DNA of 10,188 nucleotides, taken from Thermoproteota archaeon (lineage in GTDB: Archaea > Thermoproteota > Bathyarchaeia > Bathyarchaeales > Bathycorpusculaceae). The stretch is taken from NCBI GenBank assembly GCA_012511995.1, contig JAAZFA010000142.1, positions 1-10,188 on the forward strand. The letters run 5' to 3'. The notes under the pieces are model-generated. The model searched no databases. It had not been told where the DNA came from and saw only the letters and a list, made by a program, of their open reading frames with translations. This document shows positions 2,379 to 10,188 of this stretch, in pieces (within the stretch, counting starts at the first letter, position 1; every line of letters starts with the position of its first letter). The position numbers and the translations under genes were made by a program.

Positions 2379-3740
2379 CTACGTTTTGCGATTATCGTTT
2401 ATACCCTTTTCATTTAGAGTTATTATGAATTTTGTTCCCTTCCCAGTTTCACTCTCAAAAGTTAGTGATCCACCCAAGGCTTCTACAAGTCGCTTAACCA
2501 CCGGTAAACCTAATCCTTGACCTTTTGCCTTAGTTGTCAATAATGGCGTAAAAAGTCGAGACTTGACTTCTTCTGGGATACCATTACCAGTGTCGCTGAC
2601 TTCAATGACTACCCTTTGATCTGTTTTGTATGCGACCACTCGTAAGATTCCACCATCAGGCATAGCTTGGATTCCGTTGTTAACTAGGTTTGTGAGTGCA
2701 CGTCGGATGAGGGTTGGGTCAGTCTTTACTTTAGGATAACCCTGAACATCAACGTGTAAAGTTATCCAATCAGGAACTCGAACAGTTTGGAAAGTACTTG
2801 TAACTAACTTTGCTAAATCAGTCTCCTTAATATCAGGCTTTATGGGTCTAGCAAAATCTTGCAGGTCAGACACTATTTTACTGATATAATCTGATTGTTC
2901 CTCAATAAACTCTATACTCTCTAATGCCGGAGCCTTTACTTCTTGAGGCATAGGGCTTTCCACAATAGATTGCCTAGCAATGTAGACTTCACTAGTAATT
3001 GCCTGCAATGGATTGCGTATATCATGACCTATCATCCCGGCGGTCTGCCCGATAGCTGCTAAACGGTCGATTTCTTTACGCTCTTGGGATACTTTATGCA
3101 TATGCCATCGGTAAGAGCGTATTTGCAGACTACTTAACGCGCCAACCAAGTTGGCGAAGGCTAAACTAAATAAAGCAGTAACAAGTCCAGGCTCCATAAA
3201 CCCATGAAAAGTAAATGCAATTATAACTACTTCACCTAAACTAAAAACTATTGATGGAATCACTTGAAAAATAAACCGTGTTGGCATAACCAAATAGAAA
3301 ATAACCACAGCCATATCTATAACGATTATATGAGGTACAAAATTTTCGGGGCGCGTCAAATTAACTAACAGTACCCCTATTACCAAAGAAAGCATGTAGA
3401 AAAAAATCGCTCTATCATAAGCAGAATGATTAGGCACGTTTTTAAGGTACCTTAAAATAAAGACAGAAAAAGCGACAAGTACAATCCTAAGTATTATTAA
3501 ACCAACCAAAATAGGTGACGTACCTAAAAACTGGTAATCACCGATAACAAACAAAGCAACAATTAAAGCTAAAATAAAAATGAATGGTCTTGCTTCTGAG
3601 ATATCAGAATCAAGATAATATTTTCTATATTCAGGGTCTGCATCCGCTGAAGTAGCCCGCCAAGCAGTCTTGAATCTACCTTTTAAGTGTCTAAACAAAG
3701 TAATTAAATCTCTACCTCTGATTAATTCGTTTTCCTCCAA
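2379..3740 (-). CDS. Membrane-bound sensor histidine kinase, six transmembrane helices
   Basis: An integral-membrane sensor kinase of 453 residues. About 50 N-terminal soluble residues are followed by six hydrophobic segments, near 52-67, 76-97, 110-127, 136-152, 155-177 and 184-204. No extracytoplasmic sensor domain of any size lies between them, so the stimulus is probably sensed within the membrane. A linker helix leads to the HisKA domain, with the H-box GHDIRNPLQ and phospho-acceptor His239. The HATPase domain has an N-box (NLVNNGIQAMPDGG, 351-364), G1 (VSDTGNGIPEEV, 381-392), an F-box (LFTPLLTTKAKGQGLGL, 396-412) and G2 around 406-412. All kinase motifs look intact. No response regulator is adjacent, so the partner is elsewhere. 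The start is uncertain: the first usable codon is TTG at 3738-3740, directly overlapped by a GGAGG, and no ATG or GTG exists in frame upstream before a stop. The ClC gene lies 90 bases upstream on the same strand. Confidence 0.9.
   Translation of the reverse strand: MEENELIRGRDLITLFRHLKGRFKTAWRATSADADPEYRKYYLDSDISEARPFIFILALIVALFVIGDYQFLGTSPILVGLIILRIVLVAFSVFILRYLKNVPNHSAYDRAIFFYMLSLVIGVLLVNLTRPENFVPHIIVIDMAVVIFYLVMPTRFIFQVIPSIVFSLGEVVIIAFTFHGFMEPGLVTALFSLAFANLVGALSSLQIRSYRWHMHKVSQERKEIDRLAAIGQTAGMIGHDIRNPLQAITSEVYIARQSIVESPMPQEVKAPALESIEFIEEQSDYISKIVSDLQDFARPIKPDIKETDLAKLVTSTFQTVRVPDWITLHVDVQGYPKVKTDPTLIRRALTNLVNNGIQAMPDGGILRVVAYKTDQRVVIEVSDTGNGIPEEVKSRLFTPLLTTKAKGQGLGLPVVKRLVEALGGSLTFESETGKGTKFIITLNEKGINDNRKT
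3734..3738 (-). promoter_or_regulatory. Shine-Dalgarno-like GGAGG overlapping the proposed TTG start of the histidine kinase
   Basis: On the minus strand the reading is TTGGAGGAAAAC. The GGAGG starts at the last base of the TTG instead of 5-10 bases before a start. The only in-frame codon at a plausible distance behind it is ATC (3720-3722). The next TTG (codon 15) is about 35 bases away, too far for this site to serve. Either the TTG is read on a leaderless mRNA, or a rare start codon is used, or the GGAGG is chance. Confidence 0.35.
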
Positions 3741-3830: not shown

Positions 3831-5519
3831 CTATGATGGACTTTTTGGTTCAACCAACTCTAAAATTTTCTTTATCACATCAATTACCGAAATAACACCG
3901 ATAATCTGTGAAGTGTCATCTACAACATAAACGTCGTCTTCTTGATTATCCATCATACTTTCTGCTATAGTATTCAAGCGTGTATTATGTTTAATAATAA
4001 TGGGTTGTCTCATAATTTTTTCAGGAAGTTCTAACTCGTGATTCCCCACATCAAGGTAACCAAGGTTTTCTAAACTCACCATACCTATAATATAATTGGA
4101 TTCATCGATAACAGGCATAACTCGAAGGTCCTGTTCCTTAAAAGTTTGCAAGGCATCCTTAACAGTGGTTCCTTTACGTAATACGAAGGGGCTTTCGGTC
4201 ATGATTTCAGATGCTGTAATCTGTTTTAGGGCATCAGGAGCTACTTTTAATCCTCTAAGATAGAACCGTTTCAGAGCTAAGGCTTCATTCTTGAGTCTTG
4301 TACGGGGTTGGAGAGGATAAAAAGAATGGTTTCCAGAGAGGACAAAACTAATACCGCTTGCTAGAAGAGCAGGGATAGCAAATAGGCCACCTAACGTTTC
4401 AACGACGAATGCAGCGGGAGTTAAGAGCATTTTATGTGTTCCTGCAAGTAAAGCGGCCATACCTACGGCAATAAACATTATAGACAAATTCACATTGAAG
4501 ACTAAAGAGAAGATATAACCTAAACCGGCGCCTATTACGATAGTGGGAAAAAATAATCCACCGCTTCCACCCCAATTTAGCGTAGTTGTGGTGATGATGG
4601 TTTTTAATAAAATTACCGCGATGAGAACGGTTATACTGAAACTCGCCCCACTAATAAGAGCACTGACGAAGTGCAGACCTACTCCGATAGAATAAATTGA
4701 AATTAACCCTGATAATGCAACTGAACTGGCACATAACACAACTACTGCGGTGTCACCGTACTTTTCTCTTAACTTTACGCCATATTCACTCATTTTATCA
4801 AAAGTTTTTGTGAAGAACACGGAGTACAGACCACAGATTGAACCAAGCAATAACGACAATCCAATAATGTCTAACGTAAGTGGAGTTGACGCTATAGTGC
4901 CAAAAATAGGTTCAGCGCCTAGCACTGCTACAGACAACAAGTATGCAGGTATCGACGCAACGATAGCTTCAATAAAGGTTTCACGGTCTAAGTCGTTTTT
5001 ATAAGGTATTTCGAGAGCAAATAGGATGCCCGTGAGCGGTGTTCTAAAGGTAGCCGCTAAACCCGCAGCTGCACCTGCAACAAAGATTCTTCTCCTCAAA
5101 TCATGCTTAACTTTAAAACGTTTAGTTAAAGCTGAAGCAACACCACCGCCGGCAAGCAAACTTGGACCCTCAGGTCCAGCACTACCGCCAAAACCGATGG
5201 TTAACATACCTGCGACAGATTTTACAAAGGTGTCCCGAAAGTTAACTTCACCGTTTGTTAGATGATAGGCTTCTAATACAGTATGGGTTCCTGAACCAGT
5301 TGTTTTAGTTTTAGCCAAACGTTTTACTAGAAAATATGGTAGACCAATTGCTGCAAAAGACAGGGGAATGATAGTGAAGACCGAGAAACTCGATGCAGAC
5401 CATGTTATTTGCCAGAGTTCGGTGTAGACAATATAGAGACCGATAGCTAATGCTGCAGCAAGCAATCCGGTAATGCCAACGAACACATAGTAAGTGATAT
5501 TGTCGCTAAATCTGCTCAT
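3831..5519 (-). CDS. ClC-family chloride channel/antiporter with C-terminal CBS pair
   Basis: A ClC anion transport protein of 562 residues that works as a dimer in the cytoplasmic membrane. Residues 1-425 form the helical ClC body. The first anion-site loop is GSGTHTV (75-81). The second is GSAGPEGP (112-119), with the gating glutamate at E117. FRTPLTGILFALEIPY (158-173) follows, then GGLFFP (320-325, the GxFxP motif). A tyrosine (Y401) in NHSFYPLQPRTR sits near the position of the inner-gate tyrosine. Two CBS domains (about 434-490 and 500-555) form a cytoplasmic module that binds adenine nucleotides in related proteins. Aligned by eye to the E. coli ClC-ec1 antiporter, the inner proton glutamate (E203) is replaced by Ile171, while the preceding Glu (E170) is kept. 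Proton coupling may therefore be altered, and I cannot say whether this is a channel or an antiporter. The start is an ATG with a TATA box about 31 bases upstream. Confidence 0.93.
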   Translation of the reverse strand: MSRFSDNITYYVFVGITGLLAAALAIGLYIVYTELWQITWSASSFSVFTIIPLSFAAIGLPYFLVKRLAKTKTTGSGTHTVLEAYHLTNGEVNFRDTFVKSVAGMLTIGFGGSAGPEGPSLLAGGGVASALTKRFKVKHDLRRRIFVAGAAAGLAATFRTPLTGILFALEIPYKNDLDRETFIEAIVASIPAYLLSVAVLGAEPIFGTIASTPLTLDIIGLSLLLGSICGLYSVFFTKTFDKMSEYGVKLREKYGDTAVVVLCASSVALSGLISIYSIGVGLHFVSALISGASFSITVLIAVILLKTIITTTTLNWGGSGGLFFPTIVIGAGLGYIFSLVFNVNLSIMFIAVGMAALLAGTHKMLLTPAAFVVETLGGLFAIPALLASGISFVLSGNHSFYPLQPRTRLKNEALALKRFYLRGLKVAPDALKQITASEIMTESPFVLRKGTTVKDALQTFKEQDLRVMPVIDESNYIIGMVSLENLGYLDVGNHELELPEKIMRQPIIIKHNTRLNTIAESMMDNQEDDVYVVDDTSQIIGVISVIDVIKKILELVEPKSPS

Positions 5520-5683: not shown

Positions 5684-6532
5684 TTGATACAAACTATTGT
5701 TTCAGAAGACATAGCAGATAACATGGAAAAAACAGAAAGAAAAATCATAGAAGCTGCGCAGAAAGGCGCACAAATAATCTGCTTACAAGAACTTTATCGT
5801 TCAAGATATTTTCCTCAAGAGCAAAACCTCGACGTATCAAAACTTACCGAAACCATTCTAGGTGACTCAACTAAAGCATTCTCCGCAATAGCTGCAAAGT
5901 TTAATGTGGTAATTATTGTGCCGATTTTTGAAAAGAATGAAAATGGTAAAACCTACAATACTGCAGTTATAATCGACGCAGACGGTTCAATTGCTGGGGT
6001 ATACCGCAAAACCCATATTCCTTTTGATCCATACTTTTACGAAAAAAATTACTTTGCACCTGGAGAACAAGGGTATCAAGTTTACAATACTGCTTATGCC
6101 CGCATTGGAGTCTTGATATGTTATGATCAATGGTTCCCTGAACCTGCACGTATCAACGCGTTGCAAGGCGCAGATATTGTTTTCTACCCAACCGCTATTG
6201 GCTACATTAAAGGGCATACTTCAGCAGATGACGATTGGCATGATGCATGGAAAACCGTTCAGCGGGCTCATGCAATCGCAAATGGGATTCACGTAGCTGC
6301 AATAAATCGTGTAGGTCAAGAAGGGTTGCTAGAATTCTGGGGAGGCAGTTTCGTATGCGACTCGTTTGGCAAAGTAATTGCAGAAGCCAGCATAACAAAC
6401 GAGGAAGTAGTCGTAGCTGAACTCGACTTATCACATAATGAATGTATTAAAGAAGGATGGGGTTTTCTACGCAACCGACGCCCCGATACCTACAACTTAT
6501 TGACCAAAAATGTGGAGGAGGATAAACAATGA
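5684..6532 (+). CDS. aguB: N-carbamoylputrescine amidohydrolase (nitrilase superfamily); 5' end apparently frameshifted
   Basis: Hydrolyses N-carbamoylputrescine to putrescine, CO2 and ammonia in the cytoplasm, the step after agmatine deiminase. The nitrilase-fold Glu-Lys-Cys triad is clear. In the 282-residue product from the TTG at 5684 it comprises E36 (CLQELYRSRYF), K109 (YRKTHIPFDP, then YEKNYFAPGE) and C146 (IGVLICYDQWFPEPAR). RAHAIANGIHVAAINRVG and FWGGSFVCDSFG are also typical of AguB. The TTG start cuts off the first beta strand. The same frame encodes KTVIVG just upstream, but no ATG, GTG or TTG precedes it before a stop at 5618-5620. An ATG at 5655 lies one frame off. Adding one A to the A-run at 5666-5669 would give MKATKTVIVGLIQ and a normal 292-residue protein. 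A sequence error, a real lesion, or reinitiation after the short ORF 5655-5681 could explain this. The stop overlaps the aguA start (ATGA). Function sure; N-terminus not. Confidence 0.9.
   Translation: MIQTIVSEDIADNMEKTERKIIEAAQKGAQIICLQELYRSRYFPQEQNLDVSKLTETILGDSTKAFSAIAAKFNVVIIVPIFEKNENGKTYNTAVIIDADGSIAGVYRKTHIPFDPYFYEKNYFAPGEQGYQVYNTAYARIGVLICYDQWFPEPARINALQGADIVFYPTAIGYIKGHTSADDDWHDAWKTVQRAHAIANGIHVAAINRVGQEGLLEFWGGSFVCDSFGKVIAEASITNEEVVVAELDLSHNECIKEGWGFLRNRRPDTYNLLTKNVEEDKQ
6514..6521 (+). promoter_or_regulatory. Shine-Dalgarno sequence for aguA
   Basis: GGAGGAGG ends seven bases before the aguA ATG at 6529, inside the last codons of aguB. It is the clearest Shine-Dalgarno site in the window. 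It fits the expectation that internal operon genes are read from a ribosome binding site while first genes here have short or no leaders. It fixes the aguA start. Confidence 0.75.
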
Positions 6533-7575
6533 ACACAGCAAAAGTTTGCCGTGAAACTGGTTTTATTATGCCAGCGGAATGGGAGTCTCATGAAGCAATT
6601 TGGCTTGCATGGCCATATGACCCCACAACCTTCCCTGACCGAATTCCAAAAGTAGAAGCAACATATGTCCAAATCATCAAAGAAATTCATGAAAACGAAG
6701 TAGTTAACCTCTTTGTAATTGATGGGTCCACAAAAAAGAAAGTTCTCACCATGCTCAACGATGCAAGCATCAACTTAGACCGTGTAAACATTTGGGTCTA
6801 TGATTATGCTGATGTCTGGTTCCGTGACTATGGGCCTATATTCGTTAAGAACCCACAGCATGAATTAGTCATGATTCATTGGGACTTCAACAGTTGGGGT
6901 GACAAATATGAAACCCTCCTAAAAGACAAAGAAATCCCCGAAGTCATAAACAGGGAATTAAAACTAACTTGCTTTAAACCGGGCATAGTATTAGAGGGGG
7001 GGTCAATTGATGTGAATGGGAAAGGAACGCTTCTCACGACTGAACAATGTTTGTTAAACAGTAACCGCAACCCAGACCTTAAAAAAATAGGTATTGAACA
7101 ATATTTAAAAGATTACTTAGGGGTCACCCACATTATATGGTTAAAACGTGGTATCTTAGGAGACGATACTGATGGTCACATCGATGATCTTGCACGCTTT
7201 GTAAACCCAACCACTGTAGTTTGCGCATTTGAAGATAATTCAGAGGATGCTGATTACGATGCCTTAAAAGAAAACTATGATTTGCTTGTCGATTCAGTCG
7301 ATCAAGATGGTGAGCCATTGAAAATCGTAAAGTTGCCAATGCCAAAAGTGGAAAGCGACGATGGTTTCCGGTTGCCTGCAAGTTATACTAACTTCTATAT
7401 AGGAAATTCTAAAGTGCTTGTTCCGGTCTTTGATCACCCCAACGACGAAAGAGCGTTGGCAATTCTACAGGAATTGTTTCCTACCAGAAAAGTCGTCGGC
7501 ATATGCTGTAAAGATCTCGTTTATGGTTTTGGGACAATCCATTGCATTAGTCAGCAACAACCCATTTCTGTCTAA
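6529..7575 (+). CDS. aguA: Agmatine deiminase (agmatine iminohydrolase)
   Basis: Converts agmatine to N-carbamoylputrescine and ammonia in the cytoplasm, feeding the AguB encoded just upstream. The 348-residue length is normal for the peptidyl-arginine-deiminase-like family. It opens with FIMPAEWESHEAIWLAWP (12-29), the usual N-terminal signature. Further motifs are DYADVWFRDYGPIF (92-105), WDFNSWGDKY (118-127), LEGGSID (155-161), DTDGHIDDLARF (213-224) and GFGTIHCISQQ (333-343). By family knowledge the nucleophile is the cysteine in the last motif (C339), with H217 and acidic residues in the other motifs completing the site. All are present, so the enzyme looks active. The ATGA overlap with aguB and the strong Shine-Dalgarno site indicate one transcript and coupled translation. 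In an archaeon agmatine comes from arginine decarboxylation, so this pair gives a route from arginine to putrescine without urea. No decarboxylase gene is in the window. Confidence 0.95.
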   Translation: MNTAKVCRETGFIMPAEWESHEAIWLAWPYDPTTFPDRIPKVEATYVQIIKEIHENEVVNLFVIDGSTKKKVLTMLNDASINLDRVNIWVYDYADVWFRDYGPIFVKNPQHELVMIHWDFNSWGDKYETLLKDKEIPEVINRELKLTCFKPGIVLEGGSIDVNGKGTLLTTEQCLLNSNRNPDLKKIGIEQYLKDYLGVTHIIWLKRGILGDDTDGHIDDLARFVNPTTVVCAFEDNSEDADYDALKENYDLLVDSVDQDGEPLKIVKLPMPKVESDDGFRLPASYTNFYIGNSKVLVPVFDHPNDERALAILQELFPTRKVVGICCKDLVYGFGTIHCISQQQPISV

Positions 7576-7593: not shown

Positions 7594-7605
7594 TTTTTTC
7601 CCTTT
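7594..7605 (+). terminator. T-tract terminator after aguA
   Basis: A run of six T, then CCC and three more T, lies about 19 bases after the aguA stop codon without a stable hairpin before it. Archaeal RNA polymerase ends transcription at such T-tracts. The next gene has its own TATA box 40 bases further on, which fits the end of a transcript here. Confidence 0.45.
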
Positions 7606-7644
7606 AGTTACCTTTAAAGTCTCCAATGGAATTATAGGTAGGGC

Positions 7645-7678: not shown

Positions 7679-9895
7679 ATGGCTAGGAAACAACCGCAAC
7701 GAAGCCGCGGAGTTAAAGTGTTAAAAGCTGTTTCATCACCCCTTAGGCTACAAATCCTAAACTTACTTTTCGATAAAAATGCTCTCGCCTATACTGAACT
7801 CATGACAGAGTTAAAGATGAATCCAAGTCGGGATGCGGGTCGGTTCGCTTACCATCTTAAGTTTATGCTAAAGGCAGGCTTAGTTGAAGCTGATGTTGAA
7901 ACAAAAAAATATTTTCTTACAGACTTAGGCAAGATGGTGCTAGATGTTGCTGACCGGGTTGAAAAGAAAGCAGTAAAATCAAATAGTATGCTTGTTCGAA
8001 CATCACATTCAACCTTTGAAGAGTTTGACGTAAACAAAATAACTAACTCACTTATCAAAGAAGGTAAAGTTCCAGCGGATTTAGCTCAAAAAACTGCCAA
8101 GGAAACTGAAAAACGTCTTGTCAAATCAAAAACTAGATATATTACTGCACCACTTATTCGCGAACTTGCTAATAGTATCCTAGTTGAAAAAGGCTATGAA
8201 GAATATCGCCATAAATTGACTCGTGTTGGCATGCCAATACATGAAGTAAACGCCCTTATAGAATCCAAAGAAGCAATTTCTGATTCAAATCAAATTATCA
8301 ATAAAGCAGGTCAAGTTGTGCTATCCGAATACACGCTACTAAACATTTTTCCTAGAGACATCGCCGATGCACATTTATCAGGTGCGATCTATATTGATGG
8401 TTTAGGAACTTGGGTATTGAAACCCACCGAAGTCTTCCATGACTTGTGTTATTTCTATCAATATGGTATTAAACCGGGAAATCCCAAACAAGTCTACATA
8501 CACCCTCCACAAGACTTTAAATCTGCGCTTTCAATCATCTTTAACATATTACTGCATAGCAGCAGAGAGACTTATCTAACACAGACTTTCAAGTGTTTTA
8601 ACGTATTCATCGCACCATTTGTAAAGATAAACGAAGCGTCAGAAATTAAAGAAAATCTTCGACTCTTCATTTTAAATCTTAATCAACATATAGATGCAAC
8701 GCTGGGAATTGAACTCGTATTCTCCAAATCAGTAGCTGAGAAAACAGCTATTGGTCCAATGGGTAAAGTGTGTGGTAAATACGGTGACTACCTAAAAGAA
8801 AGTCAATTGGTCGCTTCTCTGATACTGGAGATTTTACGTGAAGAATGTGCCCTTAAACCGTTGTTAAATCCAAAATTTGTTTTGAGAATTAACAAGGAAA
8901 CCTTGAGCAACGAAAAAGCATTATCTATACTCAAAAATGCTCACGACATAGCCTCAAAGTGTGGACTGCTTTATTTTGCAAATCTAACTAAAATAGAAAA
9001 CGAAAATTCAGCGCTTTCCTCGTCAGGAATTAAATTATCCACGGACATAACCGGTGAATGGGAAACGGATACTTTACGCAATGGCTGCCTTGGATGCGTC
9101 ACCATTAACTTGCCTAGAATAGCACTCGAATGTGAAAAAGACAAGAACAAATTCATCGGACTAACAAAAGAACGTTTTGAATTAGCTGCTAGGGCATTGA
9201 GTATTAAAAGCAACGCATTAAAGCAGTTTGGGAAAACTTCTGTACCTTTTTTGATGCAAAAAAATAGCGGTGATACTTATTTCCGATTAGAAAACTGTTC
9301 CAGAATAATCAATTTTGCAGGACTTCTTGAAGCTGTGGAAATACAGACTGAAAAACCAATTAATTCGGAAGAAGGCCATAGATTTATCGAAGAAATTATT
9401 GATAGTCTACTGTTATTTAAGCAAAAGATTTGTAGGAGATACGGGAAACGTCTTTATCCAGCTATAATTAGTAACCGGAACGCTGCAGAACGCTTAGCGC
9501 AATTAGATATTGAGAAGTATGGGGTTGCTAAAATAAAATTTTTGGGTACAAGAGACAAACCGTACTATTCTACCTTAAGACGAATTCAAATAAAACTAGC
9601 CCAACCGCTTGTAGCACCACCAGGTACTGTTGAAATGACTAAAACTCTTAAGGGTTTAAACGTAGGTGGCAGTTTGGATGTCTTCGAGTTGGACGGTGAT
9701 GGATTTACACCTGAAACGTTGCTAGATTTTACAATGCGGGTCATTGAAAATCAAGCTAGCGAATTCTTTACATACAACCGTACAATCAGCTATTGTAGTA
9801 ACTGTAACCAGAATTGGGTTGGAACTACCCATAAATGTCCTTCATGTAGTTCTATGAGTGGATTAACGACATTTGACAGGTTTTCATCAACTTAA
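7679..9895 (+). CDS. ArsR-like HTH / ATP-cone / anaerobic ribonucleotide reductase (NrdD)-like fusion, probably a pseudoenzyme regulator
   Basis: A 738-residue protein of three parts. Residues 15-95 are a winged helix of ArsR type (SSPLRLQILNLL, then YHLKFMLKAGLVE and YFLTDLGK). Residues 105-195 are an ATP-cone (STFEEFDVNKITNSLIKEG ... YITAPLIRELANSIL). Residues 200-738 resemble class III reductase: FPRDIADAHLSGAIYIDGL (224-242), CLGCVTINLPRIA (470-482), KRLYPAIISNR (590-600) and a zinc-ribbon C-x2-C-x10-C-x2-C at 706-723. Active NrdD ends in an R-V-x-G-Y glycyl-radical site after the ribbon; here the chain ends GLTTFDRFSST. The cysteine segment that normally precedes the VTINLPR motif seems replaced by SSSGIKL (447-453), and the usual H-I-H-D-L reads YIDGL. 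No nrdG activase is in the window. I infer a transcription factor that binds deoxynucleotides or ATP, analogous to NrdR, and not a working reductase. An alternative is an unusual active reductase whose motifs I cannot align by eye. Confidence 0.85.
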   Translation: MARKQPQRSRGVKVLKAVSSPLRLQILNLLFDKNALAYTELMTELKMNPSRDAGRFAYHLKFMLKAGLVEADVETKKYFLTDLGKMVLDVADRVEKKAVKSNSMLVRTSHSTFEEFDVNKITNSLIKEGKVPADLAQKTAKETEKRLVKSKTRYITAPLIRELANSILVEKGYEEYRHKLTRVGMPIHEVNALIESKEAISDSNQIINKAGQVVLSEYTLLNIFPRDIADAHLSGAIYIDGLGTWVLKPTEVFHDLCYFYQYGIKPGNPKQVYIHPPQDFKSALSIIFNILLHSSRETYLTQTFKCFNVFIAPFVKINEASEIKENLRLFILNLNQHIDATLGIELVFSKSVAEKTAIGPMGKVCGKYGDYLKESQLVASLILEILREECALKPLLNPKFVLRINKETLSNEKALSILKNAHDIASKCGLLYFANLTKIENENSALSSSGIKLSTDITGEWETDTLRNGCLGCVTINLPRIALECEKDKNKFIGLTKERFELAARALSIKSNALKQFGKTSVPFLMQKNSGDTYFRLENCSRIINFAGLLEAVEIQTEKPINSEEGHRFIEEIIDSLLLFKQKICRRYGKRLYPAIISNRNAAERLAQLDIEKYGVAKIKFLGTRDKPYYSTLRRIQIKLAQPLVAPPGTVEMTKTLKGLNVGGSLDVFELDGDGFTPETLLDFTMRVIENQASEFFTYNRTISYCSNCNQNWVGTTHKCPSCSSMSGLTTFDRFSST

Positions 9896-10188
<293 letters not shown>

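Follow-up and report, generated by a model that had tools for sequence, protein, structure and literature searches.

What role can be played by a protein that is built like an anaerobic ribonucleotide reductase (RNR), has lost its catalytic residues and carries a DNA-binding head? The question is raised by a gene close to the end of a 10,188-nucleotide stretch of Bathyarchaeia DNA (contig JAAZFA010000142.1, assembly GCA_012511995.1), the whole of which is called the window here. We refer to its product as HCN, for helix-turn-helix, cone and NrdD-like protein (Table 1). In our reading, HCN probably arose from a class III RNR and regulates the transcription of RNR genes in response to nucleotides. 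This reading draws on computed features: the architecture, the lost catalytic residues, the retained fold, the conserved cone, an inverted pattern of constraint and a one-sided linkage to RNR genes. Its best support comes from beyond the window, where RNR genes of five kinds stand behind HCN genes.

If true, the reading would place HCN beside RNRs and NrdR as a third kind of ATP-cone protein; the cone reportedly received its name in a paper from 2000. Among openly licensed PMC papers, none was found by title or abstract on a protein joining helix-turn-helix, ATP-cone and NrdD. Nor was a paper found, by title or abstract in a partial library, on how archaea that lack NrdR fit RNR expression to deoxynucleoside triphosphate (dNTP) levels. 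NrdR is described as rare in archaea (PMC9110341, PMC12176259).

HCN joins a winged helix and an ATP-cone to an NrdD-like body

An earlier reading of the window, made from the letters alone (the sequence-only reading), had proposed that one open reading frame (ORF) encodes all three domains. Each of them scores above its Pfam cut-off. HTH_5 (PF01022) matches residues 20-70 (E 6e-7, 29.7 bits against a cut-off of 22) and DUF7347 residues 14-88, followed by the ATP-cone (PF03477) at residues 104-176 (E 4e-7) and NRDD at residues 207-727 (E 1e-61). The zinc ribbon reported for the C-terminal part is also present, with cysteines 706, 709, 720 and 723. The body retains the overall NrdD/RNR fold. 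The NCBIfam NrdD model TIGR02487 reaches 221.5 bits, under its cut-off of 326, and the metalloregulator model NF033788 also stays under its own cut-off. A Foldseek search matches the N-terminal domain to HlyU (4k2e, E 9e-3). A frame-broken or chimeric ORF was ruled out: leaving aside one near-copy, identity to the best 120 listed relatives is 67-74 %, and the matches span 99-100 % of the length.

Several known systems resemble HCN in part. It shares its fold, ATP-cone, zinc ribbon and sequence homology with the class III anaerobic RNR NrdD, but lacks the first-strand cysteine, the HxHD motif and the NxN flap and has an added winged helix. Like NrdR, HCN joins an ATP-cone to a DNA-binding domain and is encoded near RNR genes; unlike NrdR, it uses a winged helix instead of a zinc ribbon and carries a dead NrdD body of 500 residues. 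The NrdR model TIGR00244 of NCBIfam has no match to HCN; a separate nrdR gene passes its cut-off. The proposed origin separate from NrdR is supported. ArsR/HlyU-type winged-helix regulators are alike in the N-terminal domain and in nothing else. In the phosphoribosyltransferase (PRTase)-type PurR and the catalytically dead viral R1, an enzyme fold was kept for another role after catalysis had been lost, and HCN resembles them in this reuse. These involve other folds or partners, and neither is known to join an ATP-cone to a helix-turn-helix.

Catalytic residues of NrdD are lost in HCN

In NrdD, the substrate phosphates are bound by the HxHD motif and the site is closed by the NxN flap; the Prevotella copri enzyme has its radical cysteine at 416, a second cysteine at 171 and the radical glycine at 711 (PMC11226230). 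The window protein differs at each of these elements. It ends in GLTTFDRFSST without R-V-x-G-Y, its HxHD site (H-I-H-D-L in the expected strand) reads YIDG (238-241), and SSSG (447-450) occupies the loop of the radical cysteine, so that the three losses called in the sequence-only reading are upheld by alignment. T4 NrdD residue 299 pairs with D456, and a gapless count back from this pair places T4 C290, which we take to be the radical cysteine, on S447. By sequence alignment there is no cysteine at the radical site. C470 and C473 were rejected as substitutes, because both lie in a predicted strand (468-477) after the loop and C473 is not conserved among aligned HCN.

The same pattern is found across the family, in a comparison of 351 HCN rows (346 distinct) with 20 NrdD rows (18 distinct). 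The first-strand cysteine and the NxN flap are each absent from every HCN row (0/351) and present in every NrdD row (20/20). CC ahead of NLPR occurs in 0/344 HCN against 19/19 NrdD, these being the rows in which NLPR could be placed (344/351 and 19/20). R-x-x-G-Y is found in one of 351 HCN (L046, at the extreme end) and in 19 of 20 NrdD. The zinc cysteines persist in 224-225 of 351 HCN, compared with 16-20 of 20 NrdD. Since hundreds of relatives have this pattern, it is not due to chance. Among 120 deep members, which are relatives of a Verstraetearchaeota-type HCN, neither the first-strand cysteine nor R-x-x-G-Y occurs (0/120 each), and the thiyl column holds a cysteine in 4/120. With flap, HxHD and first-strand cysteine gone, the suggestion that HCN also senses nucleotides through relic substrate pockets finds no support at the active site.

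Table 1 Features of the HCN locus in the window. Residue numbers refer to HCN.
Feature	Position	Strand	Basis or remark
HCN gene, 738 aa	7679..9895	+	ATG start; winged helix + ATP-cone + catalytically dead NrdD body
ArsR-type winged helix (HTH_5 / DUF7347), residues 14-92	7718..7954	+	Pfam
ATP-cone, residues 104-176	7988..8206	+	Pfam
NrdD-like body, residues 207-727	8297..9859	+	Pfam NRDD
YIDG (238-241) replacing substrate-phosphate HxHD motif	8390..8401	+	Alignment
E251 at position of NrdD first-strand catalytic cysteine	8429..8431	+	Alignment
SSSG (447-450) at NrdD thiyl-radical cysteine loop	9017..9028	+	Alignment
Zinc ribbon C706-C709-C720-C723, no glycyl-radical loop after it	9794..9847	+	Alignment
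Conserved HCN promoter element, core TTTAAAG in window	7603..7641	+	Conservation upstream of HCN
3' part of pyrB (aspartate carbamoyltransferase), convergent, conserved neighbour	9896..10186	-	Neighbourhood comparison

Constraint is concentrated in winged helix and cone

Constraint in HCN is inverted relative to NrdD, and the former catalytic body is its loosest part. In two groups with both proteins (10-15 pairs each), the mean pairwise identity of HCN is 0.70/0.74 for the winged helix, 0.80/0.81 for the cone and 0.58/0.53 for the body; the adjacent NrdD reaches 0.72/0.74 in the cone and 0.81/0.81 in the body. Of 20 invariant columns in 60 aligned HCN, 19 fall within residues 1-186, and R23, L27, G54, F56, H59 and L60 of the winged helix are invariant. 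The cone residues R107, E128, R161 and T/S156 are kept in 350/351 HCN. Winged helix and cone being more conserved than the body, selection acts on the sensor and the DNA-binding head.

RNR genes of five kinds follow HCN genes

A scan of genome contigs yielded loci that were not picked by their neighbours, 69 of them with at least 700 nt downstream (11/80 were left out). A same-strand RNR gene lies within 2 kb downstream of HCN in 15/69; opposite-strand RNR genes within 2 kb downstream and RNR genes upstream were each found in 0/69. HCN thus sometimes stands directly before the gene of the real enzyme, and its probable role is therefore that of a nucleotide-sensing switch. Pooling all loci gives an adjacent RNR in 44/141 (12/153 with less than 700 nt downstream left out), a figure inflated because at least 24 loci were fetched after their neighbours were known (L180-L199, 20 loci, by NrdJ proximity; L014-L017 by tandem matches), so that 15/69 is the one to quote. 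By source, the counts are 0/9 for L005-L013, 9/20 for the picked L014-L033 and 20/20 for the picked ammonia oxidisers. The loci are not all independent: L030 and L108 are one gene, and L032 and L037 are near copies. In a further check of 22 hand-picked genomes, 8 had an adjacent NrdD.

Assigned by best BLAST reference, the reductases behind HCN are class II NrdJ with a cone, class II NrdJ without one, NrdD behind a glutaredoxin gene, a second archaeal NrdD and NrdD of the window-genome type. In the Hecatellales loci L059 and L060, NrdJ starts 1.5 and 1.0 kb downstream, distances that make an intervening gene possible. The tree groups the HCN of L068 with L030/L084 and that of L089 with L099, despite the differing RNRs behind them. 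The reductase thus seems to have been swapped while HCN stayed.

The linkage is also seen in ammonia oxidisers. AmoA is found in 30 genomes from two families and in 0/16 other genomes tested. In 29 of these 30, HCN and a PF02867 gene share a strand and are less than 5 kb apart; in the exception (G082) the PF02867 gene is on another contig. The gap between HCN and nrdJ measures 67-435 nt in the 23 loci read. Among the matches listed, NrdG2 is above cut-off in 0/30 AmoA-positive HCN genomes against 6/6 Bathyarchaeia, with sub-cut-off matches in all 36 and the other NrdG family outside this test. Linkage to RNR holds for the HCN family and not for the window's own genus.

HCN and NrdR coexist in the window's family

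In other lineages a reductase gene sits between HCN and pyrB; in the window genome the two are convergent with no RNR between them. A separate, intact nrdD/nrdG, which was sought in the same genome, is found on another contig (C36) as an nrdR-nrdD-nrdG set, whose NrdD keeps MCCRL, HIHDL and RVVGYL. NrdR is above cut-off in 14/14 sampled genomes of the window's family and in 0/186 others, with sub-cut-off matches of at most 27.5 bits in 19 further genomes. In one genome, G221, HCN is split in two pieces inside one open frame.

The family keeps both proteins, with different promoter DNA. Searching for TAGTGK-N12-19-RCACTA, we found a pair with N16/17 spacing in 30/30 nrdR promoters and 0/30 HCN promoters, which rules out NrdR-type boxes shared by HCN. 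The nrdR pair is compatible with the published 15-16 bp between NrdR boxes (PMC12051234). In the same loci (L138-L167) a second conserved stretch, about GTnTATTTTTCAyGG, lies ahead of the nrdR promoter, and TTTAAAC occurs 115-120 nt before nrdR in 4/30.

The HCN promoter contains a candidate autoregulatory site

A conserved element precedes HCN, with the core TTTAAAC in most relatives having it and TTTAAAG in the window. TTTAAAC is present upstream of 56/94 Bathyarchaeia HCN genes (4/98 loci left out) against 9/453 other ORFs, a control rate lowered because these ORFs include operon-internal genes; 3 of the 9 are read divergently from HCN, out of one common intergenic region. Mononucleotide shuffles predict 1.8/94. 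The aligned core consists of AA, TTTAAAC and an A/T-rich start about 20 nt downstream. The element may serve autoregulation or be no more than the core promoter, and is a lead, not proof.

Two shared-site candidates were rejected. Searched in 11 genomes, mostly picked for carrying a form of the element at the HCN promoter, YTWAGTTTAAACTC gave 12 sites against 4 for the reversed-pattern control; 9 of the 12 lie at HCN promoters (nine genomes), and the sequence does not mark other promoters of the genus. One remaining site precedes an ORF with a resemblance, judged by eye, to GMP synthase. In ammonia oxidisers GTAnCGGTGT stands before nrdJ in 20/23 loci and before HCN in 0/23. In the alignment of L180-L199, L018 and L019, this degenerate motif is upstream of a TATA-like box.

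A proposed mechanism and its alternatives

In the regulator reading, a class III RNR would have acquired a winged helix at its N-terminus and given up catalysis. The NrdD-like body would hold the HCN dimer, and the cone would read ATP versus dATP. A change of nucleotide would alter how the paired winged helices bind the HCN promoter and, where an RNR gene follows, its promoter likewise. By analogy with NrdR, dATP-loaded HCN most likely represses. In the window's family, HCN perhaps controls itself. Dimerisation, nucleotide binding, DNA binding and repression are all steps that we infer.

A number of observations weigh against this reading. Some residues persist in the family: a cysteine somewhere in the loop columns in 115/351 HCN (none in the window protein), a cysteine in the thiyl column itself in 2/351 and a glycine in the radical column in 19/351. 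Among the deep members the glycine rises to 58/120, and CC[R/A/S] within residues 300-520 occurs in 1/120. Some soil forms (L041, L043, L045, L049, L050) combine the loop cysteine with the glycine, and have neither first-strand cysteine nor NxN flap. We read the glycine-bearing forms as intermediates. Most unselected loci (54/69) have no RNR within 2 kb downstream, 27 of them having convergent pyrB and 27 neither, and an adjacent RNR is found in 0/23 newly fetched, eligible loci of the window's genus. HCN occurs in 32/32 genomes of that genus and NrdR in 31/32, so that HCN coexists with NrdR. The promoter element is missing from 38/94 HCN upstreams, resembles an archaeal promoter (BRE, the transcription factor B recognition element, plus TATA and initiator) and has a lowered control rate. 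The three YTWAGTTTAAACTC sites away from HCN are unshared singletons.

HCN might instead be a non-catalytic subunit that binds the reductase and tunes its activity through the cone, with the winged helix making protein or minor DNA contacts. The kept fold and the co-linearity with RNR genes would suit this role, but five kinds of RNR are hard for one protein interface to follow and conservation is higher in the winged helix than in the body; we regard it as unlikely. Slightly less likely still is regulation of pyrimidine synthesis (pyrB/pyrI) or another pathway in place of RNR. Where RNR is absent, the neighbour seen most often is convergent pyrB (60/141 of all loci, 27/69 unselected), and the window's genus keeps HCN throughout with no adjacent RNR in the 23 eligible new loci. 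However, the convergent orientation puts the pyrB promoter at a distance, pyrB comes after RNR where both occur (L014, L015, L068, L081, L109), and the ammonia-oxidiser loci L018, L019 and L023 have HCN-nrdJ with no pyrB match. This alternative keeps most of its ground in the window's family. That HCN is still an enzyme, acting as a reductase or by other glycyl-radical chemistry through a different cysteine, with an incidental winged helix, is very improbable: the fold, the glycines of deep members and the loop cysteines would fit, but all 351 HCN miss the first-strand cysteine and NxN flap, the window protein has neither loop cysteine nor glycyl-radical loop, and the NrdG2 result above, for that family, speaks against it.

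The regulator reading can be extended to history, and here we lean only narrowly in favour. On the Thermoproteota-Asgard side of the archaea, HCN would be the ancestral regulator of RNR, staying while the class III or class II reductase behind it was exchanged; NrdR would have joined later, perhaps from bacteria, in one Bathyarchaeia family, and ammonia oxidisers would use HCN for DNA-precursor control. Cultured ammonia oxidisers would allow the regulator idea to be tested directly.

Distribution and database names

A profile of helix-turn-helix and cone (A1) gave at least 120 matches of at least 180 bits, in at least 119 of 200 Thermoproteota genomes. Relatives are filed under Bathyarchaeota, Hecatellales and Verstraetearchaeota/Methanomethylicales. 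Metagenome-assembled genomes labelled as Asgard (Odinarchaeota, Freyarchaeota, Lokiarchaeia, Promethearchaeota; labels as filed, binning unchecked) also encode HCN. This spread rules out a private oddity of Bathyarchaeia. The claim that an archaeal lineage turned a reductase into a regulator is supported as to the conversion, by the dead body, intact cone and DNA-binding head, and fails as to a single lineage. A tree of 32 HCN and 20 NrdD rows separates the two by a 100/100 branch, with several long branches and the root not fixed.

Functional names in databases are ArsR family regulator, helix-turn-helix protein and (anaerobic) ribonucleoside-triphosphate reductase. The last, whose presence on HCN relatives had been anticipated, is the label of the ammonia-oxidiser forms that carry a functional name. 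It misleads inferences on anaerobic metabolism, because the labelled proteins are without the catalytic residues; our reading would correct these names.

G006 has two HCN copies, one long and one short, on contigs C13 and C16 (L025, L024). Shortened HCN of 535-636 aa occur in L020, L021, L022 and L024; the NRDD match is under cut-off in L020 and partial in L024, and both retain helix-turn-helix and cone. L042, filed as Candidatus Njordarchaeum, shares 68 % identity with the query head and has a pyrB neighbour as in Bathyarchaeia; its assignment is possibly a binning error. G169 (78 % complete) has an HCN match and no separate full RNR among the matches listed, which we read as incompleteness.

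Other genes of the window

Just upstream of HCN, a carbon-nitrogen hydrolase gene (5684-6532) and an agmatine-deiminase-like (PAD_porph) gene (6529-7575) have four bases in common and may form an agmatine-to-putrescine pair. On the minus strand (52-2173), the fibrillarin (52-1041) and Nop5/56 (734-2173) ORFs share, as listed, about 300 bases; the GTG start of fibrillarin is probably placed too far upstream, since the Pfam domain starts at residue 102. A histidine kinase (2379-3740) and a chloride channel with CBS domains (3831-5519) lie in tandem, also on the minus strand.
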